Shown here in pieces: positions 15,142 to 53,674 of a DNA stretch of 64,000 nt. Origin of the DNA: Streptomyces cadmiisoli. GTDB lineage: Bacteria; Actinomycetota; Actinomycetes; Streptomycetales; Streptomycetaceae. Position numbers and translations under genes: made by a program. Each line of letters starts with the position of its first letter. The first letter of the stretch is position 1. The stretch is from the NCBI RefSeq assembly GCF_003261055.1, contig NZ_CP030073.1:558001-622000 (forward strand), written 5' to 3'. The notes under the pieces were generated by a model. The model was given only the letters and a program-made list of their open reading frames with translations. It was not told the origin of the DNA and made no database searches.

Positions 15142-16241
15142 CTGGCCCCACCGTTCCCCTCGGGTACGGCGGGCTGCCCCACCGGTGTGCGGCGCAGGCG
15201 CCCGCGCAGCTCGAGCAGCCGACCGCAGACCTCCGGGATCCGCTCGGCCGGGAACTCCTCGTCCTCCCAGCCCGGTTCGGCCTCCGCCAGCGCCGCCGTC
15301 GCGGCCGGGGCGAACCTGACCCGCCCGCTCTCGACGACGATGCCGTCGGCCTGCGACCACCGCTGGTTGGCCGCGACCGCCTCGGCCCGGCTCAGTCCGG
15401 CCGGCAGCCGCAGGGTGAGGCGGCCGTGGCTGATCCGCACCGGGTAGCCGCCGGGCAGTCCGGCCACGCCCGGCAGGCTGGTGTCCAGCTCCGAGCCGCT
15501 CGCGAGCGCGTCGATGAGCATCGCGCCTGCCTGTCCGGTCACCTGGTTGAGGGCCGGACGGTCGCAGGCACGCTGACCGGCCAGCGCCGCGGTGACTCCG
15601 TCCAGCGGCTCGTCGTCCAGCCAGCCGAGGGCCTCGCCCGCCGGGCCGGGCGGGTTCAGGTGCACATGGTGGCCGACCACCCGCAGTCGGCGCTGGTCGG
15701 GCAGGCCGAGCCGGGCCTGCAGACTCGCGGCGAGCAGCGCCACGTTGCCGATGCCGCACAGCACCGGCACTCTCAGCGCGGCAAGCACCGGGTTGACCGC
15801 GTCCGGGAAGCAGGCGTTGACGAACCAGGAGCCGCATTCGGCCGCGGCCCGGCCTGCCACCAGGGCGAGATCCGCCTGCAGCGGGAGCGTCAGCCCGAAG
15901 CCACCGCGCCCGAGCAGGGCGGTCCAGGCCGAAGGTGCCCCGCGGCGCTCCCACGGCGACTGGTGGGAAGCGCACAGCAGCACACCGTCCGGGGCCTCCT
16001 CGCGGATCACCTCGGGCAGCGCGGCCCGCAGGTCCGGGCCGGTCGTCCGGGGCCGGAACTGCGCGGCGCGACCGGCCAGCGCGGCACGTGTGCCGGCCAG
16101 CTCGCACAGGTGGCCGACGCTCTCCCCGCGGGCTGCCACGATCACCCGCAGTGGCGGTCCGGCCGCCGTCGCCAAGCCTGCGCAGACGGAGGCGGCGAGG
16201 GAGCCGCTGCCGATGACCACGACGGTGGGCACCGCCGTCAT
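15138..16241 (-). CDS. Rossmann-fold NAD(P)-dependent dehydrogenase-like protein
   Basis: 367 residues starting MTAVPTVVVIGSGSLAASVC, a GxGxxA-type dinucleotide-binding motif at the very N-terminus. Other visible segments are VLLCASHQSPWER, SWFVNACFPDAVNPVLA and VVGHHVHLNPP, broadly reminiscent of opine/malate-type dehydrogenases or of reductases acting on carrier-bound substrates. No specific family is recognised. It is the first gene of a unit that continues with A-PCP, KS and DUF6002-like genes through short overlaps. A redox step on the amino acid loaded by the A-PCP protein is a reasonable inference. Confidence 0.7.
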   Translation of the reverse strand: MTAVPTVVVIGSGSLAASVCAGLATAAGPPLRVIVAARGESVGHLCELAGTRAALAGRAAQFRPRTTGPDLRAALPEVIREEAPDGVLLCASHQSPWERRGAPSAWTALLGRGGFGLTLPLQADLALVAGRAAAECGSWFVNACFPDAVNPVLAALRVPVLCGIGNVALLAASLQARLGLPDQRRLRVVGHHVHLNPPGPAGEALGWLDDEPLDGVTAALAGQRACDRPALNQVTGQAGAMLIDALASGSELDTSLPGVAGLPGGYPVRISHGRLTLRLPAGLSRAEAVAANQRWSQADGIVVESGRVRFAPAATAALAEAEPGWEDEEFPAERIPEVCGRLLELRGRLRRTPVGQPAVPEGNGGAR

Positions 16242-16509
16242 CGCACCGACGCCCGTCCGTGCGGTCTCGCGGTCACGAAAGTGATCTTCGGTATCGGCAC
16301 GGCTGGATAGTAACCCCTCACCGGCCGCGCGGGAGGGCTCCGCGGCAAGGTATTCGAACACTTCCCAAGCACCGACGGCGTGGTTAGCATGCCCACTCAG
16401 TGCTAGATCAACTAAGCCCTGTCCAGCCGGTGTTCCTGGCGGCGGTGCGGTGCCGGCGGCGAACCACCGGACACCTGTGGGCGTTTTCCGGGGGGAGCTT
16501 GGCTTGAGG
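16242..16509. promoter_or_regulatory. Divergent intergenic region between two biosynthetic units
   Basis: 268 bp separate the minus-strand building-block unit from the plus-strand LanB/NRPS/PKS unit, so it must hold both promoters. It is locally AT-richer around 16385-16425 (TAGCATGCC, TAGATCAACTAAG). A clear -10/-35 pair could not be chosen with confidence, and no precursor-peptide gene is visible. Confidence 0.5.
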
Positions 16510-18894
16510 ATGTCGCTGACGTCCACACCGGCCGTGCACGAAACCGGCCAGGAGCCGGTCGCACTGGCCGACCTGCCCGGAACCCGCTGGCAGGTGTGGC
16601 GCGACGCCGTCCTGCGCTCCACCGGATTCCCCGCCCAGGGCCTGCGCGTCTTCGCCTCCCCCGCCGCCGCCTCGGCCGCCGAGGCCCGTCTTGCCGGAGA
16701 CATCGACGACGTCGGCTACCGCGCGGCCTTCGCAAAGGCCGCCGCGGTCATCGGCACCCAGCTGTACGAGATAGCGGGCGACCCCCTGTTCCGCGAGGCG
16801 ATCACCTGGCAGAACCCCGATGTGCTGGCGTTCCTGGACGGTCTGCGCGCGGCCGGCCCCGACGCCGCGCCGGACCGCAAGACCCGCCGCCGGCAGGCGG
16901 TGGTGGCCCGCTACTGGCAGCGCTACTGCGCCAAGAACGACACCATCGGCTTCTTCGGCCCGGTGTGCTGGGTCCGGCTGACCGACGACGACGCCGTGGT
17001 GACGGCCCGTCCGGGACCCGGCCTGGTGACCGGGCGGCAGGTGTACTTCGAGTGGTGGGCCCTGGCGGCGTTCGCGGACCGGCTGGCCTCCGACCCGCGC
17101 TTCCGGCCGCACCTGCCCGTGGCACTGCAACCCCAGCTCTCCGTCCGGGCGGGGATGTTGCACCGCCCCGTGGAGCCGCCCGTGGAGCTCACTCCCGCCG
17201 AGGTGTCGCTGCTCGGCCTGCTGACCGGCCCGCGCCCGGCCGCCGGGGTGGTGGCCGAACTCGTCGCGGACAGCGGCAATCCCGTCCGGCGCAGCGCGGA
17301 CGGTTTCATGCTGCTGGAGCGCCTCACCGAACGCGGGGTGCTGCGCTGGGGCATCGACCTGCCGCTGAACCTGTCCGCCGAAGCGGCCCTGCACGCGGCG
17401 ATCGACGCGATCGGCGACCCTGCCGCCCGCGAGGCCGCTCGCGAGGAGTTCGGCCGGCTGGACGCCGCCCGCTCCGCGGTGGCCGCCGCGGCCGGCGATC
17501 CGGCCGCCCTGCGCGCCGCGACGGTCCGGCTGGACGAGGTGTTCACCGAGCTGACCGGGCTCGACAGCCGACGCAGGGCGGGGCAGACGTACGCCGGACG
17601 CACGCTGTGCCACGAGGACGCCGTACGCGACCTGGAGCTGTCGTTCGGCCGGCCGCTGCTCGAGGAGTTGGCACCGGCACTCGGCGTGCTGCTCACGGCC
17701 GCGCGCTGGCTGAGCCACACGCTGGCCTCGGCGTACCGGCAGGCACTGCGGGAGGTCTACGCCGATCTGTGCACCGATCTCGGTACCCGGGAGGTGCCGA
17801 TGGGCGATCTGCGTTATCTCGCGCACGGCTTGTTCTTCGGCGCTGGCCGGCGGCCGGTCGACGACGTCGTGGCCGCCTTCGCCGACCGGTGGGCCCAGCT
17901 GACGGGCGGGACGGAACGCGCGCCGGACACGCGCCGGGTGCGGCTGCGCTCCGCGGAACTCGCCGACCGTGCCGCCGAGCTGTTCGACGCGCCGGGCCCC
18001 GGCTGGTCCACCGCCCGTATCCACAGCCCTGATCTGCAGATCGCCGCGCCCAGTCTGGAGAAACTGGCCGCCGGCGACTACACGGTGGTGCTCGGCGAGC
18101 TGCACGCGGCGTATCTGACGCTGTGCACCGGCGTGTTCAGCTGGGCGCACCCCCGGCCGGGCGCTCTGCGGTCCGCGATCGACCGGGATCTCGGCACGGA
18201 CCGGGTGCAGCTGCTGCTGCCGGAGGACTTCCCCCGGATGACCGCCCGGGTCGCCGACCTGCTCTGGTCGCCGGACAACTGGCAGCTCGGCTTCGCACCG
18301 GCGCCGGGCGCCGAGCACTCCCGGCTGCTCCCGGTCACCGCGTTGACGGTGACCGAGCGGGACGGCGACCTCGTGGCGCGGCACGCCGACGGGCAGGAGT
18401 GGCCGCTGCTGGAGCTGTTCGCCGACTTCCTGTCCATGCACACGGCGGACGCGTTCAAACTGGTCTCGGCCGGTCCGCACACCCCCCGGGTGGCGATCGA
18501 CCGGCTCGTCGTGGAGCGCGAGACCTGGCGCAGCACGGTCGGGGCGACCGGCCTGGCCACGGCCAAGGGCTATGCCGAGCGGTATCTCGCGGCCCGGCGC
18601 TGGGCAACGGAACTCGGCCTTCCGGACCGGGTGTTCATCCGCCTCGGCACCGAACTCAAGCCCACCTACGCGGATCTGACCAGCCCGCCGCTGGTGTACT
18701 CGCTCGCATCCATGGTGCGCCGCGCCGGTCTGGACGGGGGGCCCGACGTCGAGGTGGTGGTCACGGAGGTGCTGCCGCTCCCCGAGGACACCTGGGTCCC
18801 GGATGCCGACGGCCGCACCTACTACTCGGAGTTGCGCGTGCAGGTCCGCGATCCGCTCGTTCCGCCGCACGCCTCCGGGAGCGCCGATGACTGA
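16510..18894 (+). CDS. LanB-type protein (lantibiotic dehydratase N-terminal / tRNA-dependent aminoacylation domain) 1
   Basis: 794 residues. Family landmarks are the N-terminal LRSTGFPAQGL, the central RYCAKNDTIGFFGP (about 137-150), YAGRTLCHEDAVRDLEL (about 360) and the C-terminal LGTELKPTYADLTSP (about 714). These match the PF04738-type domain that transfers glutamate (LanB) or other amino acids (PEARLs) from aminoacyl-tRNA. The SpaB_C elimination domain of full LanB enzymes is absent. ATG 16510 follows GGGGGGAG by 12 nt; a TTG at 16504 is an alternative. The 3' end overlaps the NRPS gene by 8 bp. A second copy lies at 28059-30377. The substrate is unknown. Confidence 0.85.
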   Translation: MSLTSTPAVHETGQEPVALADLPGTRWQVWRDAVLRSTGFPAQGLRVFASPAAASAAEARLAGDIDDVGYRAAFAKAAAVIGTQLYEIAGDPLFREAITWQNPDVLAFLDGLRAAGPDAAPDRKTRRRQAVVARYWQRYCAKNDTIGFFGPVCWVRLTDDDAVVTARPGPGLVTGRQVYFEWWALAAFADRLASDPRFRPHLPVALQPQLSVRAGMLHRPVEPPVELTPAEVSLLGLLTGPRPAAGVVAELVADSGNPVRRSADGFMLLERLTERGVLRWGIDLPLNLSAEAALHAAIDAIGDPAAREAAREEFGRLDAARSAVAAAAGDPAALRAATVRLDEVFTELTGLDSRRRAGQTYAGRTLCHEDAVRDLELSFGRPLLEELAPALGVLLTAARWLSHTLASAYRQALREVYADLCTDLGTREVPMGDLRYLAHGLFFGAGRRPVDDVVAAFADRWAQLTGGTERAPDTRRVRLRSAELADRAAELFDAPGPGWSTARIHSPDLQIAAPSLEKLAAGDYTVVLGELHAAYLTLCTGVFSWAHPRPGALRSAIDRDLGTDRVQLLLPEDFPRMTARVADLLWSPDNWQLGFAPAPGAEHSRLLPVTALTVTERDGDLVARHADGQEWPLLELFADFLSMHTADAFKLVSAGPHTPRVAIDRLVVERETWRSTVGATGLATAKGYAERYLAARRWATELGLPDRVFIRLGTELKPTYADLTSPPLVYSLASMVRRAGLDGGPDVEVVVTEVLPLPEDTWVPDADGRTYYSELRVQVRDPLVPPHASGSADD

Positions 18895-21800
18895 GGCCGT
18901 GCCCGAGGACTGGGGCAGAGGAGAGTCACTGGCCGCGGCAGCGCCGACCGTGCCGCACGCCGTTCTGGCGGCGGCGCGACGGTATCCCGACGCGATCGCC
19001 GTACGGCAGGGCCGCCGTGCGGTGACCTACGCCGAACTGGTCGCCTCGGCCGGTGAACTCGCCCGGACGCTGCGTGAACTCGGCGTCGGCCCCGAGGTCA
19101 CGGTCGGTGTGTCCGGCCGACGCCGACCGGACACGATCGCAGCAATGCTGGGCATCATGCTCGCGGGCGGCGCCTATGTACCGCTGGACCCGACACACCC
19201 CCGTGACCGGCTGCTGGCCGTTCTCGACGACGCCGGTGCGGAACTCGTGGTCGTCGACGCCGAGGGCCGCGCGCTGCTCGCCGACGCGGCGCCGGACCGG
19301 CTGTTCGTCACCGCGCCGGCCGGCAGCCCGTCCTCCTCGGGCAACCCGGTCCACCCGGTCCCGGAGGCCCTGTCCCCGGACAACCCGGCGTACGTGATGT
19401 ACACCTCCGGCTCGACCGGCGCCCCGAAGGGCGTGGTCGTCACCCATCGCAGCGTGTCCGCGTTCCTGACGGCCTCCGCGCACCGATTCGGGATCGGTGC
19501 CGACACCGTCGCCCTGGCCACCGCGTCGTTCGGCTTCGACGTGAGCGTGTTGGAGGTCTTCACCACGCTGGCCGCCGGCGGCACCGTCGCCCTGGTGCCG
19601 GAGGCCGACCGCCGTTCACCGGAGCGGCTCGGCAGCTTCGCCGCCGCACACCACGTCACCTGGGCCACCCCGCCGGTGTCGATGCTGCCCTTGCTGGACC
19701 CGGCCCAGTTCGCCGCGCTGCGGGTGCTCGTGGCCACCGCCGAACCGGTGGCACCCGATCAGGTGGGGCGCTGGGCGGGCACCGCCGAGGCGCCGAGGCT
19801 CCGCTTCATCAACGCGTACGGCCCGACGGAGACCACGGTCGAGGCCACCGCCCATGACGCCGTCGGCGAGTGGACCCGGCCGGTGCCGATGGGCCGCCCA
19901 CTGCCGAACCAGCGCGTGTACGTGGTGGACGCGGCGCTGCGCCCGGTGCCCGTCGGCGTGCCGGGCGAGCTGTTGGTCGGAGGCACGGGACCGGCCCGCG
20001 GCTACCTCGGACAACCGGGCCTGACCGCGCAGCGGTTCGTCGCCGACCCCTTCGACGGGTCGGGCGGGCGGCTGTACCGCACCGGCGACCTCGCGGCCTG
20101 GGAACCCGACGGAGCCCTGCGCTACCTCGGCCGTGTCGACCGGCAGCTCAAGGTCCGCGGTCACCGCATGGAGCCCGGGGAGGTGGAGGCCGCTCTGGCC
20201 GGCCACCCCGACGTCCGCCAGGCGGTCGTCGACCTGGTACCGACCACCGCAGGACCCCTGCTGACGGCGTTCCTGACACCCGCGCGGGCGCCGTCGGACA
20301 CGGCCCTGCGCGAGCACTGCGCCCGGCTGCTCCCGGCCGCCATGGTGCCCTCGCGTTTCGTCCGGCTCGACGCGCTGCCGCGCAACGCGTCCGGCAAGAC
20401 CGACCGGACGGCACTGCACGCGCTCGCGTCGCCGCCCACCGCGGAACCCGGCTACGGCTGGCAGCCGGACAGCGAGGAGGCGGCCGTGGTCGCCCGGGCC
20501 TGGGCCGACGTGCTGGGTGTACCGGCGCGCTCCGGCGACGACACCTTCTTCGACGCCGGCGGCCACTCCCTCGGCGCGATGCGGCTGGTCGCCCGGCTGC
20601 GCGCCGACATGGACCGGGACGTACGGATCGAGGACGTCCTGCGCGGCCGTACGGTCGACGGCATCGCCGCCGCGCTGGCCGTCGCCGCGCCGGCCGGACC
20701 GGAGCTGACGCGCGGCAACCCGCCCGCGCTGTCGGCGGCGCAACGGCGGCTGTGGTTCCTCGACCAGCTCACGACGGACAGCGGTGCCTACAACATCGCG
20801 CTGGCGCAACGGCTGCGCGGCCCGCTTGACCCGGCGGCGCTCCGGTCCGCCCTGACCGAGGTCGCCCGGCGGCACGAGGTGCTGCGCTGGCGGATACCGA
20901 CCGTCGACGGCGCCCCGACCGTGGTGCTCGACCCACCCGCCGACATCCCCCTGCCGGTCACCGATCTGACGACGCTGCCGCCGGCGGAGCGGGCCGGCGC
21001 CCTGGCCGCGCAGCTCGCGCAGGCCGCCGAGGCCCGCTTCGACCTGGCCGCCGACCGGCTCTGGCGGGCCCGCCTGCTCCGGGTCGGCGAGGACGAGCAC
21101 GTGCTGGCGGTCACCGCCCATCACGCGGTCTTCGACGGCTGGTCGCAGGGACTGTTCCTGCACGACCTGGGCACGGCCTACGGGCGCCGCGCCGCGCCCC
21201 TGCCACCCGCGGCGGCCTCGTTCGCCGACTACGTCGCCTGGCGGGCGGACCGGGCGAACCGCCGCGCCGACACCGATCTGCGCTGGTGGCTGGAGCACCT
21301 CGACGGCGTGCCGCCCGTGCTGGAACTGCCCGGCGACCACCCCCGCCCGGCCGAGCAGACCTTCCGGGGCGGGCGGGTGGAGACGCTCCTCGATGCGGCG
21401 ACCACGGCGGCGGTGCACGCGCTGGCCCGTGACTGCGGGGCGACGCCGTCGGCGGTGCTGCTGGCCGTGCTCGGCCAGCTCGCCGGCCGGCTCACAGGCC
21501 GGGACGACCTGGTCATCGGCACCCCCGCGGTGGACCGCCGGCACCCCGCGTTCCTGGATCTCGTGGGCTTCTTCATCGAGGTGGTGCCGCTGCGGCTGCG
21601 CCCGGCCGCCGGCCGGAGCTTCCGGACGCAGGTGCGGGACACTCGCGACGAGTTGCTCGACGCCCTGGCCCACCCCGAGGCACCCGTCGAGCGCCTGGTG
21701 GAGGCGCTGCGACTGCCCCGCGACGCGTCCCGTCAGCCGCTGGTCCAGGTGCTGTTCAACGCCTACAACTTCCCGCAGCCGCGGCTCGAGATGCCCGGAC

Positions 21801-22411
21801 TGGACGTCACGGCTGAGCCGGTACCGGTACCCGGGGCCCCGTTCGACCTGACGCTGTACGCCGCCGAGGCCGACGGGCACTACCGGATCGAACTCGTCCA
21901 CAACACCGATCGCTTCACGACCGCCCGCGCGGAGCGGCTCCTGGCCGCCTACGTACATCTGCTGAATGGTTTCCTCGGAGCGCCGGACCGCCCGGCCGGG
22001 GAGATCGGCCTCGATCCGTACGCCGATCTGTTCGAGGGCACGACAGCCGGGCCCGCACCGGCCGCGCCGCCGGCCCTCCCTGCGCTCCCCAACCCCGGCG
22101 GCGGCACCGAGGCGGCCGTCCTGGCCGTCTGGCGGCAGGTCCTGGAGCGCGACGACATCAAGGTCACCGACAACTTCTTCGATGCCGGCGGAACGTCACT
22201 GCTGCTCGTCACCGTGCGGCAGCGACTCGAGAAGGCGCTCGGCCGGGAGCTGCGGGTCGTGGACCTGTTCCACCACCCCAACATCCGCGCGCTCGCCGCC
22301 CATCTCGACGGTGCCGCACCGGCAGCCGGTGCGGACCGCGGCACCGACCGAGGCCTCGCACGCCGCCGCCGCGCCCCCGCCCGCGCGGTCCGGCGGCGCG
22401 GGCCGAACTGA
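18887..22411 (+). CDS. NRPS with A-T-C-T organisation
   Basis: 1174 residues: adenylation (about 20-520), carrier (Ser near 561, DTFFDAGGHSLGAM), condensation (about 630-1050, HHAVFDGWS near 745) and a second carrier (DNFFDAGGTSLLLV near 1100), then a basic tail. With no N-terminal C domain it looks like a starter: the A domain loads the first carrier and the C domain joins this unit to whatever sits on the second carrier. That second module has no A domain. The GrsA-aligned pocket reads D-V-L-A-V-T-A-V-E, not recognised; the A5 motif is NAYGPTETT. It is coupled to the LanB-type gene by an 8-bp overlap, with the PKS gene 37 bp downstream. Confidence 0.92.
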   Translation: MTEAVPEDWGRGESLAAAAPTVPHAVLAAARRYPDAIAVRQGRRAVTYAELVASAGELARTLRELGVGPEVTVGVSGRRRPDTIAAMLGIMLAGGAYVPLDPTHPRDRLLAVLDDAGAELVVVDAEGRALLADAAPDRLFVTAPAGSPSSSGNPVHPVPEALSPDNPAYVMYTSGSTGAPKGVVVTHRSVSAFLTASAHRFGIGADTVALATASFGFDVSVLEVFTTLAAGGTVALVPEADRRSPERLGSFAAAHHVTWATPPVSMLPLLDPAQFAALRVLVATAEPVAPDQVGRWAGTAEAPRLRFINAYGPTETTVEATAHDAVGEWTRPVPMGRPLPNQRVYVVDAALRPVPVGVPGELLVGGTGPARGYLGQPGLTAQRFVADPFDGSGGRLYRTGDLAAWEPDGALRYLGRVDRQLKVRGHRMEPGEVEAALAGHPDVRQAVVDLVPTTAGPLLTAFLTPARAPSDTALREHCARLLPAAMVPSRFVRLDALPRNASGKTDRTALHALASPPTAEPGYGWQPDSEEAAVVARAWADVLGVPARSGDDTFFDAGGHSLGAMRLVARLRADMDRDVRIEDVLRGRTVDGIAAALAVAAPAGPELTRGNPPALSAAQRRLWFLDQLTTDSGAYNIALAQRLRGPLDPAALRSALTEVARRHEVLRWRIPTVDGAPTVVLDPPADIPLPVTDLTTLPPAERAGALAAQLAQAAEARFDLAADRLWRARLLRVGEDEHVLAVTAHHAVFDGWSQGLFLHDLGTAYGRRAAPLPPAAASFADYVAWRADRANRRADTDLRWWLEHLDGVPPVLELPGDHPRPAEQTFRGGRVETLLDAATTAAVHALARDCGATPSAVLLAVLGQLAGRLTGRDDLVIGTPAVDRRHPAFLDLVGFFIEVVPLRLRPAAGRSFRTQVRDTRDELLDALAHPEAPVERLVEALRLPRDASRQPLVQVLFNAYNFPQPRLEMPGLDVTAEPVPVPGAPFDLTLYAAEADGHYRIELVHNTDRFTTARAERLLAAYVHLLNGFLGAPDRPAGEIGLDPYADLFEGTTAGPAPAAPPALPALPNPGGGTEAAVLAVWRQVLERDDIKVTDNFFDAGGTSLLLVTVRQRLEKALGRELRVVDLFHHPNIRALAAHLDGAAPAAGADRGTDRGLARRRRAPARAVRRRGPN

Positions 22412-22448
22412 ACAACACCGCCCCGCTTCCGGACTCGGAGAGGCAACA

Positions 22449-25400
22449 ATGACGACCCCGCAGGACATCCCCGGCGGCGATGGCGACGTCGAACCGATCG
22501 CGATCGTGGGAATGGCGTGCCGCCTACCCGGTGCGGCCGACGTCGACACGCTGTGGCGCAACCTGGTCGACGGTGTGGTGTCGACCCGCACCCTGCCGCG
22601 CACCGAGCTGCTCGCCGCGGGAGTGTCCGCCGCGGAGATCGACGACCCGTCGTACGTGCCGGTGGTGTCCTCCCTGGACCACCCCGAGTCCTTCGACTAC
22701 GGCTACTTCGGAATGACCCGCCGTGAGGCGGAGCTGGCCGATCCGCAGATCCGTCTCTTCCTCGAGCTGGCGAACACCGCTCTGCAGCACGGCGGTTACG
22801 ACCCGACGCGCTTCGACGGGGACATCGGCGTCTACGGCGGGGTCGGGCCCACCCGCTACTACTGGCGGCACCTCGGTGCCAACCGCGCCGTGACCGACGC
22901 CCTGGACGGCTCGATGGCCCTGTCCAACGCCAACCTGGCGGACTACGTCACGACCACCACCTCGTACCACCTCGACCTGCGCGGACCGAGCATCAGTGTG
23001 CACACGGCCTGCTCCACCTCGCTGGTCGCCGTGCACACCGCCTGCGAGTCACTGCGCGGCGGCGAATGCGATCTGGCCCTGGCCGGCGGCGCGTCCATCG
23101 AGCTGCCACTCAACCACGGCTACCTGCAGACGGACGGCGGGGTGGAGTCCGCCGACGGCCGCTGCCGCCCGTTCGACGCCGGCGCGACCGGCACGGTGTG
23201 GGCCTCCGGCGGCGCCATGGTGCTGCTGAAGCGGCTGTCCGACGCCCTGGCCGACGGCGATCACGTGCACGCGGTGATCCGCGGCAGCGCCGTCAACAAC
23301 GACGGCGCCGGCAAGGTGGGCTTCACCGCGCCCAGCGTGGAAGGACAGGCCGCCGTGGTGTCGACGGCCCTGTCCGTGGCCGGCATCGACCCCCGGACGG
23401 TGGGCTACGTCGAGGCGCACGGCACAGCGACGAACCTCGGCGACCCGATCGAGGTGCGGGCGCTGTCGCAGGCGTACGGCCGGCAGCCCGGCGACCGGGG
23501 CTGGTGCGGCCTGAGCTCGCTCAAGTCCAACATGGGCCACCTGAGCCAGGCCGCCGGGGCCGCCGGACTGATCAAGGCGGCGCTGGCGCTGCGCCACGGG
23601 ATGATCCCGCCCAGCGTCGGCTACGAATCGCCCAACCCCGCCATCGACTTCGACACCAGCCCGTTCTACGTCAACGCCACGCTGGCCAAATGGGACACCG
23701 ACGGCACGCCGCGCCGTGCCGGGGTCAGCTCGTTCGGTATCGGCGGCACCAACGCGCACGTCATCCTCGAGGAGACGCCGACCCCGGCGAGCACCCCGTC
23801 GGAGCGGTCCGCGCACCTGCTGCAACTGTCCGCGCGCACCCCCGAGGCCCTGGCCACCGCCGTGGACGAACTCGCCGCGCACCTGGCCGAGCGGCCCGAA
23901 CTGGCCGTCGCCGACGTGGCGCACACGCTGCGGGTCGGCCGGCGCGAGCACCGGCACCGTACGGCCGTCGTCGCCGCCGACAGCGCGGCGGCGGTGGCCG
24001 CGCTCAGGGCGGGCAAGCGCCGGCCGGCCGGTGAGGCCGCACCGGAACGTCCCCGGCTGGCGTGGCTCTTCTCCGGCCAGGGCGCCCAGTACGCCGGTAT
24101 GGGCGCGACGCTCTACCGCGCCGAGCCCGTCTTCCGCGACGCCGTCGACACCTGTGCCGAACTGCTCGCCCCGGAGCTGGGTCTGGACCTGAGATCGTTG
24201 CTCTTCGCCGACGGCAGCGGCCCGGACACCGAAGCGGCGCAGGCCGAACGGGACGCCGCCGACGAGCAGTTGCGCCGCACCGTCCACACCCAGCCGGCAC
24301 TGTTCACGGTGGAATACGCGCTGGCCGTGCTCTGGCGTTCGTGGGGCCACTCCCCCGACGCGATGGTCGGCCATTCCATCGGCGAGTACGTCGCCGCCAC
24401 CCTCGCCGGGGTGTTCGAACTCCCGGACGCGCTGCGCCTGGTCGCGCTGCGCGGACGGCTGATGGACGCGCTGCCGGCCGGCGCGATGCTCGCCGTGCAG
24501 CAGGCGGCGGAACAGGTGGCCCCGCGGCTGCCGGACGGACTGTCGGTGGCGACCGTGAACGGGCCGGGCGTGTGCGTGGTGGCGGGCCCGGCGGACGCGG
24601 TCGCGGACTTCGCCGCGCAGTTGGAGGCCGACGGCGTCCGCAGCCGCGAGCTGCGTACCTCGCACGCCTTCCACTCGGCGATGATGGACCCGATCCTCAC
24701 CGAGTTCACCGCCGCTGTGGCCGCGGTGCCCCGGCAGGCGCCGCGGTTGCCCTTCCTGTCCAACGTGACCGGCACATGGTTCACCGCGGAAGACGCCGCG
24801 GACCCGGCGTACTGGGCACGGCACCTGCGCGGCACCGTCCGCTTCGGGGACTGTGTCGGCACGCTGCTGGCCGACGGCGAGTGGGCGTTCGTGGAGTGCG
24901 GTCCGGGCCGGCAGCTCGCCGGACTGGTGCGGATGCAGACCGGCCGTGACGCGCTGGTGCTGCCCAGCCTGCCCGGACCGACCGAGTCCGCCGACGACCC
25001 GACCGTCTGCTACACCGCCGCCGGCACGCTGTGGACCCGTGGGTTCCCGGTGGAGGCGGAGTCGTTCGGGCAGCAGGCGGCCCGGGTGCCGCTGCCGGCC
25101 TACCCGTACGAGCGGGTCCGCTGCTGGATCGAGCCGGATCCCCCGGCGACCGTGGCCGCGCGGACCGAGGACCCCGCAGGCGCGGGCGCCGACGACCTGG
25201 TCCCGGCCGATCCGGCCGACTGGTTCCAGGTACCGGTGTGGCGGCAGCTGGCCCCCACCCCTGCGGACCGGCCCGCCCCCGTCTGCGTGCTCTTCGACAC
25301 CGAGGACGGCACGGACGGCCTGTTCGCCGCGCTGACCCGGGCCGGAACGGCGGTGACCCGGGTGCGCCCCGGCAGCGGCTACGCCCGCGACGGCGCCGAC

Positions 25401-28040
25401 GTCCACACCGTGCGCCCCGCCGAACCGGACGACTACCTCGCCCTGGTACGGGCCCTGCTGGCCGACGGGGTCCTCACCGAGGGCGTACGGGTCGTCCACG
25501 CCTGGTCGGCGGCCCCCGGGAACGGCGAGGGACGTGTCGCGGCCGCCTGGTCGGCCCAGGAGCACGGCTATCTCAGCCTCGTCTGCCTGGCCCGGGCCCT
25601 GGCCGCCGAGGCCGCCGACGTCCCCCTGCACCTCGATGTGGTCACCGCCGGGGTGCACGACGTCGTCGGGGGCGACGGGCGGCGCCCGGAGCACGCGACC
25701 GTGGCCGGAGCCGTGCTCGCCGTCAACCGGGAGCTGCCCGCCGTCACCGCCCGCCACCTCGACCTCGACGCGGGGCGGACCGGTGCCGACCGGTCCGCCG
25801 ACCGGTCGGTCGCCGCGCTGTGGCGCGACCCCGGCCACGACCGGGACCGGCCGCTGGCGTTGCGCGGCGGACGGCTGTGGGTACGCGGCTTCGACCGGGT
25901 GCCGCTGCCGGACGCCGGGGACGGCCCGTGGCGTACCGGCGGCGTCTATCTGATCACCGGCGGCTACGACGGCCTGGGACTGGCCGTGGCGGAGGACCTG
26001 GCCCGCCGCTTCCGGGCACGGCTGGTCCTGCTGGGCCGCTCCGGACTGCCGCCGCGGGACCGGTGGTCCGCGCTGCGCGGCACCTCCGGCCGGGCCGGCA
26101 CCGCGGTCGCCGCCGTGGAGCGGATGGAGGCCGCGGGCGGGGAAGTGCTGCCGGTGGCCGCCGACGTGTGCGATCCGGCCGCCCTTCGGCGGGTCCGCGA
26201 GGAGCTGCTGGCACGGTTCGGGCGGCTGGACGGCATCGTTCACTCGGCGGGCCTGCCGGGCGACGGCATGCTCGAGGTCAAGACTCTCGACGCCGCTCGC
26301 TCGGTGCTCGCCCCGAAGCTGGCCGGAACACTGGCGCTGCAGGACGCGTTCGGGGACCTGTCCCTGGACACGGTGGTCCTGTTCTCCTCGGTGTCGTCGG
26401 TGGTCGGCGGCATCGGCGACACGGACTACACCGGCGCCAACGCCTTCCTGGACGCCTACGCCACCTCGGAGCACGGCTGGTCGGCCCAGGTGCTGTCCCT
26501 GGGCTGGGGCGCCTGGGGGCGGATCGGGATGGCCGCCCGCTCCACCGCCCGCGATCTCCTGGGACGGTCCGACGCCTCCGGCGCCGCGACGGCATCCGCG
26601 GCGGCCGGCCGGAGCGGTGCCGTACCGATCACCCACCCGGTGCTGACCGAGCTGGTGCCGGCGTCCGGCGGCGACCCGGCGTACTGCCGCGGCACCGTCT
26701 CGGCCGCACAGCACTGGCTGCTGGACGAGCACCGCATCGGCGGGGTGCCGGTGGTGCCCGGCACCGGTCAGCTCGAACTCGTCCGCGCGGCGGTGGCGGC
26801 CTGGCGGCCCGCTCCGGACGGGGAGAGCGAACTGGAGCTGTCCGACGTCGCGTTCACGGAGCCGATCACGGTCGCCGACGGCACGCGGACGGAGGTCCGC
26901 GTAGCGCTGCGCCCGGACGCCGACGGGGTGGAGTTCACCGTGTCCAGCGTGCACGGCGAGACCGTGCGCACCCACACCCGCGGCCACGCCGCATGGGTTC
27001 GGCCGGACAGCACCGCGCCGCTCGACCTCGCGGCGGTCCGCGGGCGGTGCGCCGAGTCCGCCGCGGAGGCCGAGCGCTTCCAAGAGCAGCTCGACAGCAA
27101 TCCGTTCCTGACGTTCGGGCCGCGCTGGCGCTGCCTTCGCGAGGCGTGGATCGGCGCCGACGAGGAACTCGTCCGCCTGGTCCCGGCCGAGGCGGACGGC
27201 ACCGACTGGCCGCTGCATCCCGCGCTGCTGGACGTGGCGACCATGCCGGTCGGGCCGGGCGGCGGCGGTACCCGGCTGCCGATCGGCTACGGCCGCGTGC
27301 GCATCCACGCGCCGCTCGACTCCGCGGTGTGGGTGCACCGGTGGCGCGACGGCGCGCACGACGACACCGCGGCGGTCGTCTCCTGGGACTTCGTGGTCAC
27401 CGATGACGGTGGACGGCCGCTCGTGACGGTCGCCGACTTCATGCTGCGCGCCGTCGATCCGGACGCGATTCGCGCGGCGGTCGCCACGACGCCGGAGCCC
27501 GCCGCGCCGGACGCCGGTCCCGCGGACCCCTGGGCGATCCAGCCCGCCGACGGCCTGGACGCCCTGCACCGGGTGGTCGCCGCGGCGCCGGCGGCACACG
27601 TGCTGATCACCCCGGGCCGGTACGACGCCATGCTGCGCGGCAGCGCCGAGCGGGCCCGGCGGGCCCTGGCCGTGCTGCGCGGTGAGACCCCCGAACCGGT
27701 CGCCGCCGGACCGTCCGAGCGGGGCACGTCCGGCGGCGACGACCTGACGGCCACGGTCAGCCGGGTCTGGTCGGCGGTCCTCGGCGAGGAAGACATCGCC
27801 GACGACGACAACTTCTTCGAGCTGGGCGGGAACTCGCTCGTGGCCGTGCAACTCGTCGCGCAGATCCGCAAGGCCACCGGGGTACGGCTGCCGATGCGGA
27901 CGCTGTTCGACGCCCCCACGGTCGCGGGCATGGCCGCACGCATCGCCGAACTGCGGACGGCACAGCCGGAGTCGGCGACCGTGCCGGCCGCGCCGCAGGC
28001 GACGACGATTCCGGTCCTGCCGCGCCCGCGCCCGAGCTGA
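22449..28040 (+). CDS. Type I PKS, KS-AT-KR-DH-ACP
   Basis: 1863 residues. The KS has Cys188 (HTACSTSLVAV), EAHGTAT and SNMGHLSQAAG, so the triad is intact. The AT has GHSIGEYVAA (Ser near 640) and HAFH in SHAFHSAMMDP, the malonyl-CoA type. The KR (about 1165-1370) has TGGYDGLGLAV and catalytic DYTGANAFLDA. The DH (about 1400-1680) has DEHRIGGVPVVPGTG and Asp in HPALLDVATM. The carrier Ser is near 1793 (FFELGGNSLVAV). KR before DH is unusual for modular cis-AT PKSs. The second DH motif lacks its usual Gln/His. It should add one malonyl unit, reduced and perhaps dehydrated, to the chain from the A-T-C-T protein. A Shine-Dalgarno GGAGAGG precedes ATG 22449. Confidence 0.93.
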   Translation: MTTPQDIPGGDGDVEPIAIVGMACRLPGAADVDTLWRNLVDGVVSTRTLPRTELLAAGVSAAEIDDPSYVPVVSSLDHPESFDYGYFGMTRREAELADPQIRLFLELANTALQHGGYDPTRFDGDIGVYGGVGPTRYYWRHLGANRAVTDALDGSMALSNANLADYVTTTTSYHLDLRGPSISVHTACSTSLVAVHTACESLRGGECDLALAGGASIELPLNHGYLQTDGGVESADGRCRPFDAGATGTVWASGGAMVLLKRLSDALADGDHVHAVIRGSAVNNDGAGKVGFTAPSVEGQAAVVSTALSVAGIDPRTVGYVEAHGTATNLGDPIEVRALSQAYGRQPGDRGWCGLSSLKSNMGHLSQAAGAAGLIKAALALRHGMIPPSVGYESPNPAIDFDTSPFYVNATLAKWDTDGTPRRAGVSSFGIGGTNAHVILEETPTPASTPSERSAHLLQLSARTPEALATAVDELAAHLAERPELAVADVAHTLRVGRREHRHRTAVVAADSAAAVAALRAGKRRPAGEAAPERPRLAWLFSGQGAQYAGMGATLYRAEPVFRDAVDTCAELLAPELGLDLRSLLFADGSGPDTEAAQAERDAADEQLRRTVHTQPALFTVEYALAVLWRSWGHSPDAMVGHSIGEYVAATLAGVFELPDALRLVALRGRLMDALPAGAMLAVQQAAEQVAPRLPDGLSVATVNGPGVCVVAGPADAVADFAAQLEADGVRSRELRTSHAFHSAMMDPILTEFTAAVAAVPRQAPRLPFLSNVTGTWFTAEDAADPAYWARHLRGTVRFGDCVGTLLADGEWAFVECGPGRQLAGLVRMQTGRDALVLPSLPGPTESADDPTVCYTAAGTLWTRGFPVEAESFGQQAARVPLPAYPYERVRCWIEPDPPATVAARTEDPAGAGADDLVPADPADWFQVPVWRQLAPTPADRPAPVCVLFDTEDGTDGLFAALTRAGTAVTRVRPGSGYARDGADVHTVRPAEPDDYLALVRALLADGVLTEGVRVVHAWSAAPGNGEGRVAAAWSAQEHGYLSLVCLARALAAEAADVPLHLDVVTAGVHDVVGGDGRRPEHATVAGAVLAVNRELPAVTARHLDLDAGRTGADRSADRSVAALWRDPGHDRDRPLALRGGRLWVRGFDRVPLPDAGDGPWRTGGVYLITGGYDGLGLAVAEDLARRFRARLVLLGRSGLPPRDRWSALRGTSGRAGTAVAAVERMEAAGGEVLPVAADVCDPAALRRVREELLARFGRLDGIVHSAGLPGDGMLEVKTLDAARSVLAPKLAGTLALQDAFGDLSLDTVVLFSSVSSVVGGIGDTDYTGANAFLDAYATSEHGWSAQVLSLGWGAWGRIGMAARSTARDLLGRSDASGAATASAAAGRSGAVPITHPVLTELVPASGGDPAYCRGTVSAAQHWLLDEHRIGGVPVVPGTGQLELVRAAVAAWRPAPDGESELELSDVAFTEPITVADGTRTEVRVALRPDADGVEFTVSSVHGETVRTHTRGHAAWVRPDSTAPLDLAAVRGRCAESAAEAERFQEQLDSNPFLTFGPRWRCLREAWIGADEELVRLVPAEADGTDWPLHPALLDVATMPVGPGGGGTRLPIGYGRVRIHAPLDSAVWVHRWRDGAHDDTAAVVSWDFVVTDDGGRPLVTVADFMLRAVDPDAIRAAVATTPEPAAPDAGPADPWAIQPADGLDALHRVVAAAPAAHVLITPGRYDAMLRGSAERARRALAVLRGETPEPVAAGPSERGTSGGDDLTATVSRVWSAVLGEEDIADDDNFFELGGNSLVAVQLVAQIRKATGVRLPMRTLFDAPTVAGMAARIAELRTAQPESATVPAAPQATTIPVLPRPRPS

Positions 28041-28058
28041 ACGGGGGCGGGCCTGCGG

Positions 28059-30377
28059 TCAGGGCCGGCCGGGCGGCTCCGGATCGATGATCTGGAGCCG
28101 CAGCTCGGAGGAGTACCGCCGGCCCTGCCCGTCGGCCAGCCAGGCGTGCTCGGCCGTGGGCAGCGCCTCGGTGACGATCACCTCCACGTCGTCGCCGCCC
28201 TTGGCGCGGGCCCCGCGCAGCATGGTGCAGAGCAGGCGCACGTACACCGGGCTGGTGAAGTCGACGAACTGGGGCTTGATGTCGGTGGCGACCCGGACGT
28301 AGACCTGCTCGGGCATGTCCTCGGCCCGCCGCCAGCGGCGGGCCGCCACGAACCGCTGCTGCTCGCCGGTGACGTCGGCCAGCCCGCCTGCGCCGATCGT
28401 GGACCGCCAGGTGCGGCGGACGAGCACGAGGTCGTCCACCGTGATCCGCGGCGTGTGCCCGTCGGCGCCGGCCAGCTTCCAGGTGTCGAACGCCTGGAGG
28501 CCCAGCATGTTCGCGAAGACCTCGAGGATGGGCCACTGCCGGCCGTCCTCCGCCCGGGCGACGAGCCCGTCCGGGGTGTCGGTGACGGTCAGGGCGGTGA
28601 CCGGCACGAGCCGGTCGGGGTCCGCCCCCGGGGCCGGGACGAAGCCCAGTTCCACATCGTGCGGCCCGTTCATCCAGTACGCGTTGCGGGAGCAGTGCCG
28701 CGGCCAGTCGTGCGGCAGCAGCAGCCGGACCCGGCTGTCCGGCAGGTCGGCGGCGAGGGCCTCGCGCAGCACCTGGGGTGCGGGGTGCCCGAGGGCGAAG
28801 AACTGCGTGTCGAACGCCGCGGAGGCGATGTGCAGCTCGCCGAGCACAAGGGTGTAGTCGCCGCGGGCGAGCGCCTCGGCGTCGGTGGCGCACAGGTGGA
28901 CGTCCGGGCTGTGCACCCGTGCCTCGGACCAGCCCGGCCGGTCGGCGGGGAACGCCTCGGCGGCCCGGGCGCCGAGTTCCTCGGCAGTGAACCGCAGTTC
29001 GGCGGTGCCGGGGCCGACGTCCTCCAGGCCGAGCACGGCAGTCCACCGGCGCAGGAAGTCGGCGACCACCGGGTCCGCGGGCCGCTCGTCGCCGAAGACC
29101 AGCGCCTGGGCCATGAACCACAGCTCCCGCAGCGGCACCTCCGCTCCCCCGGCGTCGGCGGCCAGTTCGCGGTACAGCTCGGTAAGCGCGGCAGTGTAGG
29201 CCGCCGCGATCCCGGCCGACAGCCAGCGCGCCGACTGGAGCAGCGGCGCCAGGCCGGCCAGCCGGGCCAGCACGTCGCCGCCGACGGTGACGTCCAGGTC
29301 TCGGACGCTGTCCAGGTGGCAGAGCGTGCGGCCGGCGTACGTCTCGCCGGGCCGCCGCCGGGCGTCCTGGCCGGTGATCCGGGTGAAGGTGTCCTCCAAC
29401 ACGGCCATGGAGTTGGCGAGTTCGTCCGGGCCGTCGGCGGCGGCCACCGCGTCACGGGCGTCGCACAGCCGGTCCATCGTCGCCAGCGCCCGCTCCCGGG
29501 CTTCCGCGTCTCCGATGCCGTCCAGTTGCTCGCGCAGCAGCCGTTCGGCGCCGAGGTCCATCGGCAGGTCGAAGCCGAGCCGCAGGATTCCCGCGGCGGC
29601 GAGCTCGTCGAGCTGGGCGTACACGTCGGCCGGGCGGCGGAAGGTGCCGGCCGCGGTCAGACCGGCGGCGAGTTCACCGGCCCGCCGGCGCCCGTCGCAG
29701 CGGGCCACCAGCTCGGCGGCGCCGGCCGGCAGGTCCTGCGGGGGCCGGTTCGGCCATACCAGCCTGCGGCCGTCGAGCCGCAGCTGCGGCTGCCTGGCCA
29801 CGGGCAGCCAGGGGCGCAGCCGTTCGTCGGTCGCCAGGTGCGCGGCGAGCGCGTCGAGCGCCCACCACTCGAAGTGCACCGCGGTGTCCCGGACGAGCGC
29901 CGGCCCGTGCCGGACCTCCAGTCGCGGGCCGCCGTTGTCCACGGTCGACCAGCACATCGGACCGAAGAAGCCGATGGTGTCGTTCTTGGTGCAGTACCGC
30001 TGCCAGTACTTGGCGACGATCTCCTCCCGGCGCCGGCGGCGTTCGTTGCGCCGCGCCGCGGGCCCGTCTCGCAGCACGCCGGCCACGGAGCTGAGCGCTC
30101 CGGGGTTCTGCCAGGTGACCGCCTGGCGGAACAGCGGATCGGCGCAGACGTCGTGGACGGCGCGGCCCAGCCGGGTCATCGCGTCGGCGAACGCGGTGTC
30201 GACCCGGGCGGCTTCGTCGGCGTCTTCCAGGTACCGGTCCACGGTCCGGGCCAGCTCCGGCGCGCAGAACGCGGCGACGCCGTCGGCGGGGAAACCGGCG
30301 GAGCGCACCAGGGTGTGCCGCCAGACATTCCAGGTGGTGCCGGGCAGGGGGACGAGATGGTCGGACACGTTGGTCAC
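28059..30377 (-). CDS. LanB-type protein (lantibiotic dehydratase N-terminal / tRNA-dependent aminoacylation domain) 2
   Basis: 772 residues, clearly paralogous to the protein at 16510. It shares the N-terminal LVRSAGFPADGV, RYCTKNDTIGFFGP (about 125), YAGRTLCHLDSVRDLDV (about 345), HSPDVHLCA and IKPQFVDFTSP (about 699). It too lacks an elimination domain. The GTG start at 30377 lies 10 bp after the ABC permease stop, making this the last gene of the four-module NRPS / MbtH / ABC unit. It ends 18 bp from the convergent PKS gene. Because each assembly-line unit carries one copy, the two probably act on different intermediates or form a pair. Neither the amino acid nor the acceptor can be read from sequence. 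Confidence 0.85.
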   Translation of the reverse strand: MTNVSDHLVPLPGTTWNVWRHTLVRSAGFPADGVAAFCAPELARTVDRYLEDADEAARVDTAFADAMTRLGRAVHDVCADPLFRQAVTWQNPGALSSVAGVLRDGPAARRNERRRRREEIVAKYWQRYCTKNDTIGFFGPMCWSTVDNGGPRLEVRHGPALVRDTAVHFEWWALDALAAHLATDERLRPWLPVARQPQLRLDGRRLVWPNRPPQDLPAGAAELVARCDGRRRAGELAAGLTAAGTFRRPADVYAQLDELAAAGILRLGFDLPMDLGAERLLREQLDGIGDAEARERALATMDRLCDARDAVAAADGPDELANSMAVLEDTFTRITGQDARRRPGETYAGRTLCHLDSVRDLDVTVGGDVLARLAGLAPLLQSARWLSAGIAAAYTAALTELYRELAADAGGAEVPLRELWFMAQALVFGDERPADPVVADFLRRWTAVLGLEDVGPGTAELRFTAEELGARAAEAFPADRPGWSEARVHSPDVHLCATDAEALARGDYTLVLGELHIASAAFDTQFFALGHPAPQVLREALAADLPDSRVRLLLPHDWPRHCSRNAYWMNGPHDVELGFVPAPGADPDRLVPVTALTVTDTPDGLVARAEDGRQWPILEVFANMLGLQAFDTWKLAGADGHTPRITVDDLVLVRRTWRSTIGAGGLADVTGEQQRFVAARRWRRAEDMPEQVYVRVATDIKPQFVDFTSPVYVRLLCTMLRGARAKGGDDVEVIVTEALPTAEHAWLADGQGRRYSSELRLQIIDPEPPGRP

Positions 30378-30387
30378 CGGCTCCTGA

Positions 30388-31143
30388 TCAGTGAATGCTG
30401 CGGGTGAAACGACGTACGGCCCAGGCGGCCGACAGACTCCCCACGACGACCACGATCACCAGGGCCCGGATCACCGAGGGGTCGCTGTAGGTGCCTGCGA
30501 ACACCGCCCGGGAGGCGACCACCGCGTGCTGCACCGGGTTGAACTCGGAGACCAGACGCAGCCAGTCGGGGGCGTAGGCGACCGGGATGAGGATGCCGGA
30601 CGTCAGCATCAGGGGCAGGTTGATGATGTTGGCCAGGGCCGCGAGGGACATCTCGGAGCGCACGACGGTCGCCAGCGCGTAGGACAGCGAGGTCGCCGCC
30701 AGGGCCACGAACGCCATCAGCACGAACGTCAGCAGCAGCGGTCCGGCCCGCAGCGGGAAGCCGAACGGCACGGCGAGGGCCACCAGGACCGAGGCCTGGA
30801 CGAGCAGCATGAAGATGTCCCGCGCGCACCGGCCCAGCAGCAGCGCCGTCCGGCTGACCGGCGTGACCCGCATCCGCTCCAGCAGTCCCGCGTGGATCTC
30901 GCTGACCAGGCCCACGCCGGCGAAGATCGTGCCGAACACGGCGATCTCCACCAGGAGTCCGGGCAGGAACACCGAATAGGACTCGTCGCGCGACATGCCC
31001 AGCGAACGCTCCCACAGCGGCCCGAACAGCACCACGAAGTACACGGGCGGAGCCAGCGCGACCAGCACCATGAGCGGTTCGCGCAGGCTCAGCCGCAGGG
31101 ACCGGGTGAAGACGATCCAGATCTCCCGCGCCAAGGTGATCAC
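30388..31143 (-). CDS. ABC-2 type permease (DrrB-like)
   Basis: 251 residues with six hydrophobic segments (LMVLVALAPPVYFVVLFGPL, LLVEIAVFGTIFAGVGLV, LVQASVLVALAVPFGFPL, FVALAATSLSYALATVV, IINLPLMLTSGILIPVAY, VIRALVIVVVVGSLSAAWAV). The pattern ERMRVTPVSRTALLLGR and MLTSGILIPVAYAPDWLR is typical of DrrB-like drug-export permeases. The GTG start at 31143 overlaps the ATPase stop (GTGA). It should form a two-subunit exporter with the ATPase. Its place inside the NRPS unit suggests export of, or self-resistance to, the cluster product. Confidence 0.93.
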   Translation of the reverse strand: MITLAREIWIVFTRSLRLSLREPLMVLVALAPPVYFVVLFGPLWERSLGMSRDESYSVFLPGLLVEIAVFGTIFAGVGLVSEIHAGLLERMRVTPVSRTALLLGRCARDIFMLLVQASVLVALAVPFGFPLRAGPLLLTFVLMAFVALAATSLSYALATVVRSEMSLAALANIINLPLMLTSGILIPVAYAPDWLRLVSEFNPVQHAVVASRAVFAGTYSDPSVIRALVIVVVVGSLSAAWAVRRFTRSIH

Positions 31144-32099
31144 GCCGGGCCTTCCTCGTCGGCCAGTGAGCGCCCGGTGTGCGCCATGAAGACGTCGTCG
31201 AGGCTGGGCTGGTGCAGTTCGATGGCGACCGGTCTGGTGCCGGCCTCGTGCAGCGCGCCGAGCAGCCCGGGAATCGCCGTGGTGCCGTCGGGTACATGCA
31301 GCCGGAGCCGCTGCCGCCCGGCGTCGACCGGCTGCAGTCCCGGTTCCTTCGCCAGCACCGCGGCGGCGGTTGCCGCGTCGGTCCCGTCGGCGAACCGCAG
31401 GGTCACCACGTCGCCGCCGACGGCCCGCTTCAGTTCGGCGGGCGAGCCGACCGCGACGACGGTCCCGTGGTCCATGACGGCCACCCGGTCGCACAGTGCG
31501 TCGGCCTCGTCCAGGTAGTGCGTGGTGATGAAGATCGTGGTGCCAGCGGCGCGCTGCCGGCGCACCTCCTGCCACACGTCGCTGCGGCTCGCCGGATCGA
31601 GTCCCGTGGTCGGCTCGTCGAGGAACAGCAGCACCGGTTCGTGCACGATGCCCAGGGCGATGTCCACCCGCCGCCGCTGGCCGCCGGAGTAGGTGCCGCA
31701 CTGCCGGTCCGCGAAGTCCGCCATGCCGAGCGCGTCGACGACCTCGGCGGCGCGGCGTGTGGCGGCCGCTTTCGACATGCCGTGCAGTCGCCCTTGCATG
31801 ACCAGTTCCTCGCAGGCGGTGACGAGCCGCCAGGTGGCCGGGCCCTGGGCCACGTAGCCGATCCGCCGGCGCACCTTGCGCGGGTGCCGGCGCAGGTCGG
31901 CGCCGGCCACCGTGGCCTCGCCGCCGTCCGGTGGCAGCAGCGTGGTCAGCATCCGCATCAGGGTCGACTTGCCGGCGCCGTTCGGGCCCAGGAAGCCGAA
32001 TATCTCCCCTTCGGCGACGTCCAGGTCGAGATCGCGCACCGCCGGAACGCTGACCTTGCGGCCGCGGTAGGTCTTGCGCAGTCCACGGGCCTCGATCAC
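31140..32099 (-). CDS. ABC transporter ATP-binding protein (DrrA-like)
   Basis: 319 residues. Walker [10 protein letters not shown] near residue 40, signature [14 protein letters not shown], Walker [14 protein letters not shown] and H-loop [11 protein letters not shown] are all intact. A C-terminal regulatory extension ([20 protein letters not shown]) resembles the C-terminal region of DrrA-type daunorubicin-resistance ATPases. The GTG start at 32099 overlaps the MbtH stop (GTGA); a longer version would only re-read the MbtH gene in another frame. It pairs with the adjoining permease. Confidence 0.94.
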
Positions 32100-32320
32100 G
32101 ACGTCGGCCCGGCATCCTCCATCGACCGCACCAGGCTCAGGGGCCGCATGTCCGTCCAGTGCGTCTCGACGTAGTCCAGGCAGGCCTGGCGGCTGTCCTC
32201 CGGGTGCGCCACCGTCCAGCCCGCGGGCACCTCGGCGAACGAGGGCCACAGCGAGTGCTGGCCCTCGTCGTTGACCAGGACCAGGAAGCGGCCCTCGGCG
32301 TCGTCGAACGGATTGGTCAT
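32096..32320 (-). CDS. MbtH-like protein
   Basis: 74 residues with the family signature [19 protein letters not shown] and [17 protein letters not shown]. MbtH-like proteins bind and activate adenylation domains. The gene lies 14 bp after the four-module NRPS and overlaps the ABC ATPase gene, so it is co-transcribed with its probable partner. It may also serve the adenylation domains encoded at 13192 and 18887, since only one MbtH is visible here. Confidence 0.97.
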
Positions 32321-32334
32321 GGTGTTCTGCTCCT

Positions 32335-47118
<14,784 letters not shown>

Positions 47119-47191
47119 ATGGTTCCACCTCCGGAAGCGCTCCCACAAGATCTTGACGACCATGGAAAGCGGCGCGCGGGCCGCGGGGTTG

Positions 47192-47209
47192 ACTGAATCT
47201 CGCTTCAGT
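47192..47209. promoter_or_regulatory. Inverted repeat in the NRPS / radical SAM divergent promoter region
   Basis: ACTGAA-6 nt-TTCAGT (ACTGAATCTCGCTTCAGT) lies in the 196-bp region between the divergent NRPS and radical SAM genes. It sits 74 bp before the NRPS GTG and about 105 bp before the radical SAM start, and directly follows a TTGAC hexamer. It could be an operator shared by both units. No regulator is linked to it. Confidence 0.4.
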
Positions 47210-47314
47210 AACGAGCAAGATCAAGGCAGTTGGCCCGGCGCAGCGCGTGGGCTACGCTCCGACCCCGGGGTATGTGCCTCCGTCTCAGCCCTTCTAGCCG
47301 ACGCGGAGCACCTC

Positions 47315-53332: not shown

Positions 53333-53674
53333 ATCGTCTCCAGAGTTGATGATCGGCCAGATCCGATCACCCTGGAGAAGCGCTGTAAAGTACTTGATTG
53401 CGCAAGTCATTGAATGTAGGGTCCGCCTGATCGGCCCGCGCCCGGGACAGGCGATGCGGCGACGGCAACTGCTCGGTGGATCTCGATCACCTTGCGCCGT
53501 GGGGTGACGATGTCCGGCCGATGCTCGTCGGCGGCGGTCAAGAAGCCGCGGACCTGGACCAGGCCACTTGCACGCGATACGCGGCAGCCCCGGTCGGTCA
53601 CCCGGGTCGTGTGAACCTTTCTGCCTCGAATGCCGACTGTCTCGGTGATACATGGCGCGAGGCAGGGAGGTGCG
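53333..53674. promoter_or_regulatory. Divergent intergenic region, subtilase / ECF sigma
   Basis: 342 bp without a convincing gene. It must hold the promoters of the subtilase (minus) and the ECF sigma factor (plus). The AT-richest stretch (53385-53415) contains the inverted repeat ACTTG-6 nt-CAAGT at 53392-53407, about 60 bp upstream of the subtilase start, a possible operator. Confidence 0.4.

Follow-up and report, generated by a model that had tools for sequence, protein, structure and literature searches.

Two PEARL-type proteins in a Streptomyces cadmiisoli nonribosomal peptide-polyketide gene cluster without a recognisable ureido-forming domain

What do two proteins of the LanB family act on when they are encoded among nonribosomal peptide synthetase (NRPS) and polyketide synthase (PKS) genes, and a precursor peptide is not found beside them? 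This question was raised by a 64,000-nucleotide stretch of DNA of Streptomyces cadmiisoli (hereafter the window), which lies on the main contig (bases 558001-622000) of the 10.2-Mb genome and has Streptomyces as its nearest named relatives. A sequence-only reading of this DNA suggested that both proteins, here PEARL1 and PEARL2, add a tRNA-derived residue to a nonribosomal chain, and this is still the best reading, given the retained active-site residues of peptide aminoacyl-tRNA ligases (PEARLs) and the precedent of SnaE (PMC11212132). We consider it probable (about 0.72) that PEARL1 and PEARL2 are PEARL-type amide ligases that act on a nonribosomal substrate, each adding one amino acid.

The two paralogues, 794 and 772 residues long, lay where the sequence-only reading had placed them, shared 47% identity over 767 columns, and both contained the three motifs quoted from them. 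PF04738 was the sole Pfam match in each and neither contained the elimination domain PF14028, as had also been claimed, while the proposed comparison with NisB and TbtB yielded the same predicted fold, that of the LanB glutamylation domain. Residues D492, E514-L-H516, and E758-L-R760, which by motif spacing are the counterparts of the ATP/carboxylate residues D558, E575, H577, E813, and R815 of BhaB, were kept in 125-126 of 126 rows. By the same spacing, Y124, R127, and R350 correspond to the CCA-end residues Y205, R208, and R429 of BhaB and were present in PEARL1, PEARL2, and 124-125 of the 126 rows, so that the loss of all tRNA-contact residues, named earlier as an argument against tRNA use, was not seen; a counterpart of BhaB Q201 was not found at the expected spacing. 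The same genome has two other loci of LanB type, both with elimination domains (L119, 1580500-1587500; L120, 1766500-1773500), and these served as controls. Four of the five ATP/carboxylate residues were absent from L119, which kept E758, and L120 lacked E514, H516, and R760 and had a gap at D492, although several tRNA-contact residues are common to LanB of this genome and the PEARLs. Judged by these residues, the window proteins are PEARL-type and not dehydratase-type, and the earlier label "LanB-type" was imprecise. A winged helix resembling a RiPP recognition element (RRE; RiPP, ribosomally synthesized and post-translationally modified peptide) was retained at residues ~190-268 of PEARL2, though no peptide substrate was seen; it may bind a carrier protein or a thioesterase instead of a peptide.

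The genes of the cluster are given below, with adenylation (A), carrier (T), condensation (C), epimerization (E), thioesterase (TE), ketosynthase (KS), acyltransferase (AT), ketoreductase (KR), and dehydratase (DH) domains assigned by a Pfam scan, which covered part of the open reading frames (ORFs) of the window, and by a home-made domain map.

16510..18894, plus strand: PEARL1 (P0001 minus its first 20 codons), 794 aa; PF04738 E 4.9e-35, PEARL residues, cassette clade
28059..30377, minus strand: PEARL2 (P0002), 772 aa; PF04738 E 3.2e-36, closing the NRPS/exporter operon
18887..22411, plus strand: NRPS A-T-C-T (Pfam, domain map), second carrier domain without an adenylation domain; C motif AHHAVFDG
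22449..28040, plus strand: PKS module KS-AT-KR-DH-T (Pfam, domain map)
15138..16241, minus strand: OX, probable NAD(P)-binding (Rossmann) oxidoreductase, 367 aa, without a Pfam family of its own
13192..15141, minus strand: stand-alone A-T didomain (Pfam; start set by reading frame)
11426..13198, minus strand: stand-alone ketosynthase without acyltransferase, active site Cys-His-Asn (CSS, HGSA, KANIGN; Pfam, motif survey)
10071..11429, minus strand: DUF6002 (PF19465), predicted fold-type II pyridoxal phosphate (PLP) enzyme, threonine-synthase-like
30388..32115, minus strand: ATP-binding cassette (ABC)-2 permease ORF (Pfam), domain in the second half only, true start probably near 31140
31140..32249, minus strand: ABC exporter ATPase ORF (Pfam), true start probably around 32100, following the MbtH gene
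32096..32320, minus strand: MbtH-like protein, 74 aa; PF03621 E 4.2e-29 (contig 590165-590320), reading frame
32335..47163, minus strand: NRPS C-A-T-C-A-T-E-C-A-T-C-A-T-TE (Pfam, domain map); start is that of the ORF, true start maybe later

PEARL1, whose start is the ATG also used by its homologue P0108, opens the A-T-C-T/PKS operon, and the 8-bp overlap reported for it was exact (end at 18894, A-T-C-T start at 18887). Across from it lies a divergent operon of OX, A-T, the stand-alone ketosynthase, and DUF6002. The four-module NRPS with its thioesterase, the MbtH-like protein, the ABC exporter, and PEARL2 form one minus-strand operon; PEARL2 was described as closing the four-module unit, which holds insofar as it is the last gene of this operon, but the MbtH gene and two exporter genes lie between. 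The MbtH gene sits in a frame that is open upstream, at the NRPS-exporter junction, and was missed by a plain scan for small ORFs. OX had no Pfam family over the cut-off, its best PDB profile match had an E-value of 0.0033, and weak Shikimate_DH/Sacchrp_dh matches were obtained for 7-8 of 17 OX members. A radical SAM protein encoded divergently from the NRPS (46550-49399, plus strand; true start uncertain), in which a B12-binding domain was matched weakly, is a possible tailoring enzyme. A very large subtilisin-like protein (Peptidase_S8 and PA domain, 1471-aa ORF) was encoded at 49520-53935 on the minus strand.

The absence of a precursor, LanC, and elimination protein noted earlier was borne out in the window. 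From 10071 to 47163, neighboring genes either overlap or are separated by 10-85 bp, and the only gap of more than 100 bp is the 268-bp divergent gap at 16242-16509. Among ORFs of 25-100 aa located at 8-50 kb of the window, none had a LALA-like ending. Over the whole genome, PF14028 was detected only at 1.58 and 1.77 Mb, the nearest about 0.96 Mb from the window (0.558-0.622 Mb), and hits to the LanC-like PF05147 were confined to 0.28 and 1.77 Mb. Thus, neither an elimination domain in cis or adjacent nor a lanthipeptide or thiopeptide precursor with LanC, as expected of a class I lantibiotic dehydratase, was found, and the ribosomal carrier peptide of the classical RiPP PEARLs was not found in the window; the proteins are therefore filed as NRPS-associated PEARL-like proteins and not as RiPP PEARLs. 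When 7035 C-terminal frame tails outside mapped domains, from the window and 77 related loci, were compared, just two families joined the window with at least two other sources, namely the tail of the KS gene (51 sources) and MbtH (17). A 50-codon ORF (16238-16390, minus strand) in the divergent gap was also open in L062, which says little because the surrounding DNA is 92% identical throughout. In Micromonospora loci (e.g., L030 and L031; at ~5.1-5.6 kb and 8.5-8.8 kb), short frames close to the cassette, which may be chance frames or genuine small genes, were common to up to 35 loci and absent from the window.

The 77 loci were derived from the best 80 of 414 relatives in a scan of named genomes and are biased toward close relatives; their domain content was read with the same domain map over flanks of at most 10 kb, and the counts are thus lower bounds. 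An A-T-C-T protein was present in 56 of the 77, as was a KS without an AT in its ORF (56/77), and DUF6002 and OX occurred in 20 each. One PEARL was found in 38 loci, two in 38, and three in one. The nearest domain-bearing gene upstream of A-T-C-T was a same-strand PEARL in all 56 A-T-C-T loci, which had been picked for the presence of a PEARL and not for its position; a separate A or A-T protein accompanied 51 of them, and a non-AT KS 53. A Cys-His-Asn active site instead of Cys-His-His was seen in 19 of 22 stand-alone KS copies (window included), and was absent from those A-T-KS fusions that could be read. A thioesterase-like domain was fused ahead of the PEARL in a single ORF in 36 of the 77 loci (e.g., L030, L031, and L035), N-terminal in every case (36/36). 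An even sample of 394 genomes from the class contained 14, the S. cadmiisoli genome included, that gave a PEARL match at E <= 1e-20. Twelve stretches from 11 genomes were mapped from this sample, with this genome and two weak hits left out: eight contained some C domain, one had the ureido motif discussed below, and four were without a C domain; three represented the cassette, but their contigs equal those of L038, L040, and L043 in length and hence they are not new. The sample is small, and the published ureido route may well cover only part of the PEARL-bearing NRPS clusters.

That route depends on a ureido-forming C domain (Curea) with the motif EHHXXHDG, which the published survey reports for Curea domains but for none of the other MIBiG C domains (PMC11212132). 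No C domain in the window had this motif (AHHAVFDG, VHHSAFDA, SHHILMDG, HHHTLIDG, and LHHIAGDG; VHHLAVDG in the E domain), nor did any of 54 intact A-T-C-T C domains, all of which read xHHAV[FA]DG (window included, three split ones uncounted). In a C-domain tree that included every second A-T-C-T domain, all 27 of these fell within a 31-row clade (support 100/100) together with four otherwise-labelled C domains, of which two belong to split A-T-C-T proteins. The motif was found at two loci in all, L112 with two PEARLs (EHHLVHDG) and L125 with one (EHHMIHDG), and is thus recognizable when present. These two loci, where ureido-type C domains share the stretch with other PEARLs, are nearer to the logic of the sna cluster of SnaE than the window is. 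A C domain bearing the published ureido motif is excluded as the origin of the free carboxylate in the window.

The relationship of the two PEARLs was examined in a tree of 126 PEARLs and one LanB, built by a quick method and with open forks. PEARL1 clustered with cassette PEARLs (L062 and L081) at a Shimodaira-Hasegawa-like approximate likelihood ratio test (SH-aLRT) value of 99, and PEARL2 with L021, L022, and the Micromonospora loci L023-L027 (SH-aLRT 95) and more loosely with L028 and L029_1 (support 89). Amycolatopsis taiwanensis (L029) harbored a loosely PEARL2-like protein and a second PEARL in tandem ahead of A-T-C-T. Each window PEARL has a relative of 93-95% identity in Streptomyces sp. 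Ncost-T10-10d, and the duplication behind the pair is therefore not very recent.

The reading that we prefer, amide ligation on a nonribosomal substrate, is based on the predicted fold, the active-site residues, the lack of an elimination domain, of a precursor in the cluster, and of the ureido motif, and the conserved gene order. Catalytic activity and the use of tRNA are inferences, as are the target carboxylate, the order of action, and the amino acids added. Each PEARL would use ATP to phosphorylate a free carboxylate on an intermediate or product of the assembly line; attack on the phosphorylated carboxylate by the amine of one aminoacyl-tRNA, with release of the tRNA, would then add one residue per PEARL. 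PEARL1 would act within the conserved front unit (A-T, KS, PEARL, A-T-C-T, and KS-AT-KR-DH-T), and PEARL2, from the other clade, would probably add a second residue in turn, serial action on the front unit being the simplest reading. Three sources of the carboxylate are conceivable: the amino acid supplied to the front unit might carry an extra one, a thioesterase might free one, or an unrecognised ureido step might, with lower likelihood, give rise to it.

The last option is in effect the ureido route as in sna, in which two amines are coupled head to head by the A-T-C-T condensation domain, despite its lack of the published motif, and a carboxylate is left free for the PEARL. Much as in SnaA/SnaB/SnaE, A-T-C-(A)-T is followed by a PKS and accompanied by a PEARL, and the A-T-C-T C domains cluster in the tree, but their uniform motif, the restriction of EHHXXHDG to Curea domains in the published test, and its recognizability at L112 and L125 make this route unlikely. 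We judge equally doubtful an arrangement in which the PEARL replaces the missing A domain and a tRNA-made (X-aminoacyl) unit is passed to the second carrier of A-T-C-T, directly or via the probably non-elongating KS; if true, aminoacyl-tRNA would feed the assembly line itself and not decorate its product. Somewhat less improbable, though still improbable, is that one PEARL, more likely PEARL2, is a duplicate without a role in the pathway or is inactive. P0001 and P0002 are in different clades and operons, and only one PEARL was seen in 38 of 77 relatives (a flank-limited count); however, neither protein has lost any of the tested active-site positions, and P0002 has relatives of 95% and 92% identity in two other Streptomyces.

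Two further explanations appear very improbable, and to a similar degree. LanB-like ester chemistry would aminoacylate a Ser/Thr hydroxyl on a nonribosomal chain without elimination, giving a stable ester, or a dehydro residue by another enzyme; the fold shared with TbtB and NisB and the tRNA-contact residues in common with LanB of this genome fit it, but the PEARL-distinguishing D492, E514, H516, and R760 are essentially invariant and missing from both LanB-type controls, and the nearest elimination domain is far off. RiPP-type PEARLs, on the other hand, might use a carrier peptide encoded elsewhere and stand beside the NRPS by chance or feed it an amino acid. The retained RRE-like subdomain agrees with this, and a far-off peptide gene is conceivable; the Micromonospora loci share short frames that the window lacks. 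Nevertheless, the window yielded no precursor, the only frame-tail families that joined it with several other sources were the KS tail and MbtH, and the position of the PEARL directly upstream of A-T-C-T is fixed in all 56 such loci.

The cassette is conserved, widely spread, and often has two PEARLs, and the combination of a PEARL, A-T-C-T, and a KS lacking an AT, to which the DUF6002 PLP enzyme may be added, provides a marker set for finding the compounds. The origin of the carboxylates in ureido-free clusters is a clear and testable question.

With regard to known systems, the RiPP PEARLs (TglB, AmmB2/B3, and the BhaB series) are similar to the window proteins in their LanB-N domain, in the counterparts of ATP and CCA-end residues at matching spacing, and in the presence of several PEARLs per cluster, which act in turn there. 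They differ in their carrier peptide, whereas the substrate in the window would be small or bound to a carrier protein. The LanB dehydratases TbtB, NisB, and MibB differ from the window PEARLs, which lack an elimination domain and have the PEARL-marking Asp, Glu-x-His, and Arg that are absent in the two controls. The "undescribed link" between tRNA chemistry and assembly lines claimed by the sequence-only reading had already been described with SnaE (PMC11212132), and PacB of pacidamycin, listed with VlmA, DhpH-C, and DhpK among GNAT-fold transferases, is a further case in which an aminoacyl-tRNA-type donor is used on an NRPS chain (PMC12945691). PacB belongs to another enzyme family than the window PEARLs. 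It acts on an amine, not on a carboxylate. Our literature search, with most subscription journals outside it, found no paper on a PEARL cassette such as that of the window. The nearest match is the sna cluster of Stackebrandtia nassauensis (threopeptin), for which it is reported, by gene inactivation, that SnaE is needed for the addition of Thr to the NRPS/PKS product, and further that its substrate is the carboxylate freed by the ureido-forming C domain, that such genes were counted in about two thousand NRPS/PKS clusters, and that a precursor is missing (Yu and van der Donk, PMC11212132). As described there, sna also has a stand-alone PEARL-type PF04738 protein in an NRPS-PKS cluster without a precursor or elimination domain. 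It differs, as far as can be compared by description, in having one PEARL and a Curea domain (EHHLVHDG) with A-T-C-A-T and KS-AT-T, against two PEARLs and no ureido motif with A-T-C-T, KS-AT-KR-DH-T, and the stand-alone KS, A-T, DUF6002, and OX in the window. SnaE is the one characterised NRPS PEARL that we found in print and acts on a ureido-exposed carboxylate, whereas the window cassette has no recognisable ureido domain. The meeting of tRNA chemistry with an assembly line is therefore known already; what is unexpected is a conserved cassette without the ureido domain that is thought to make room for it.
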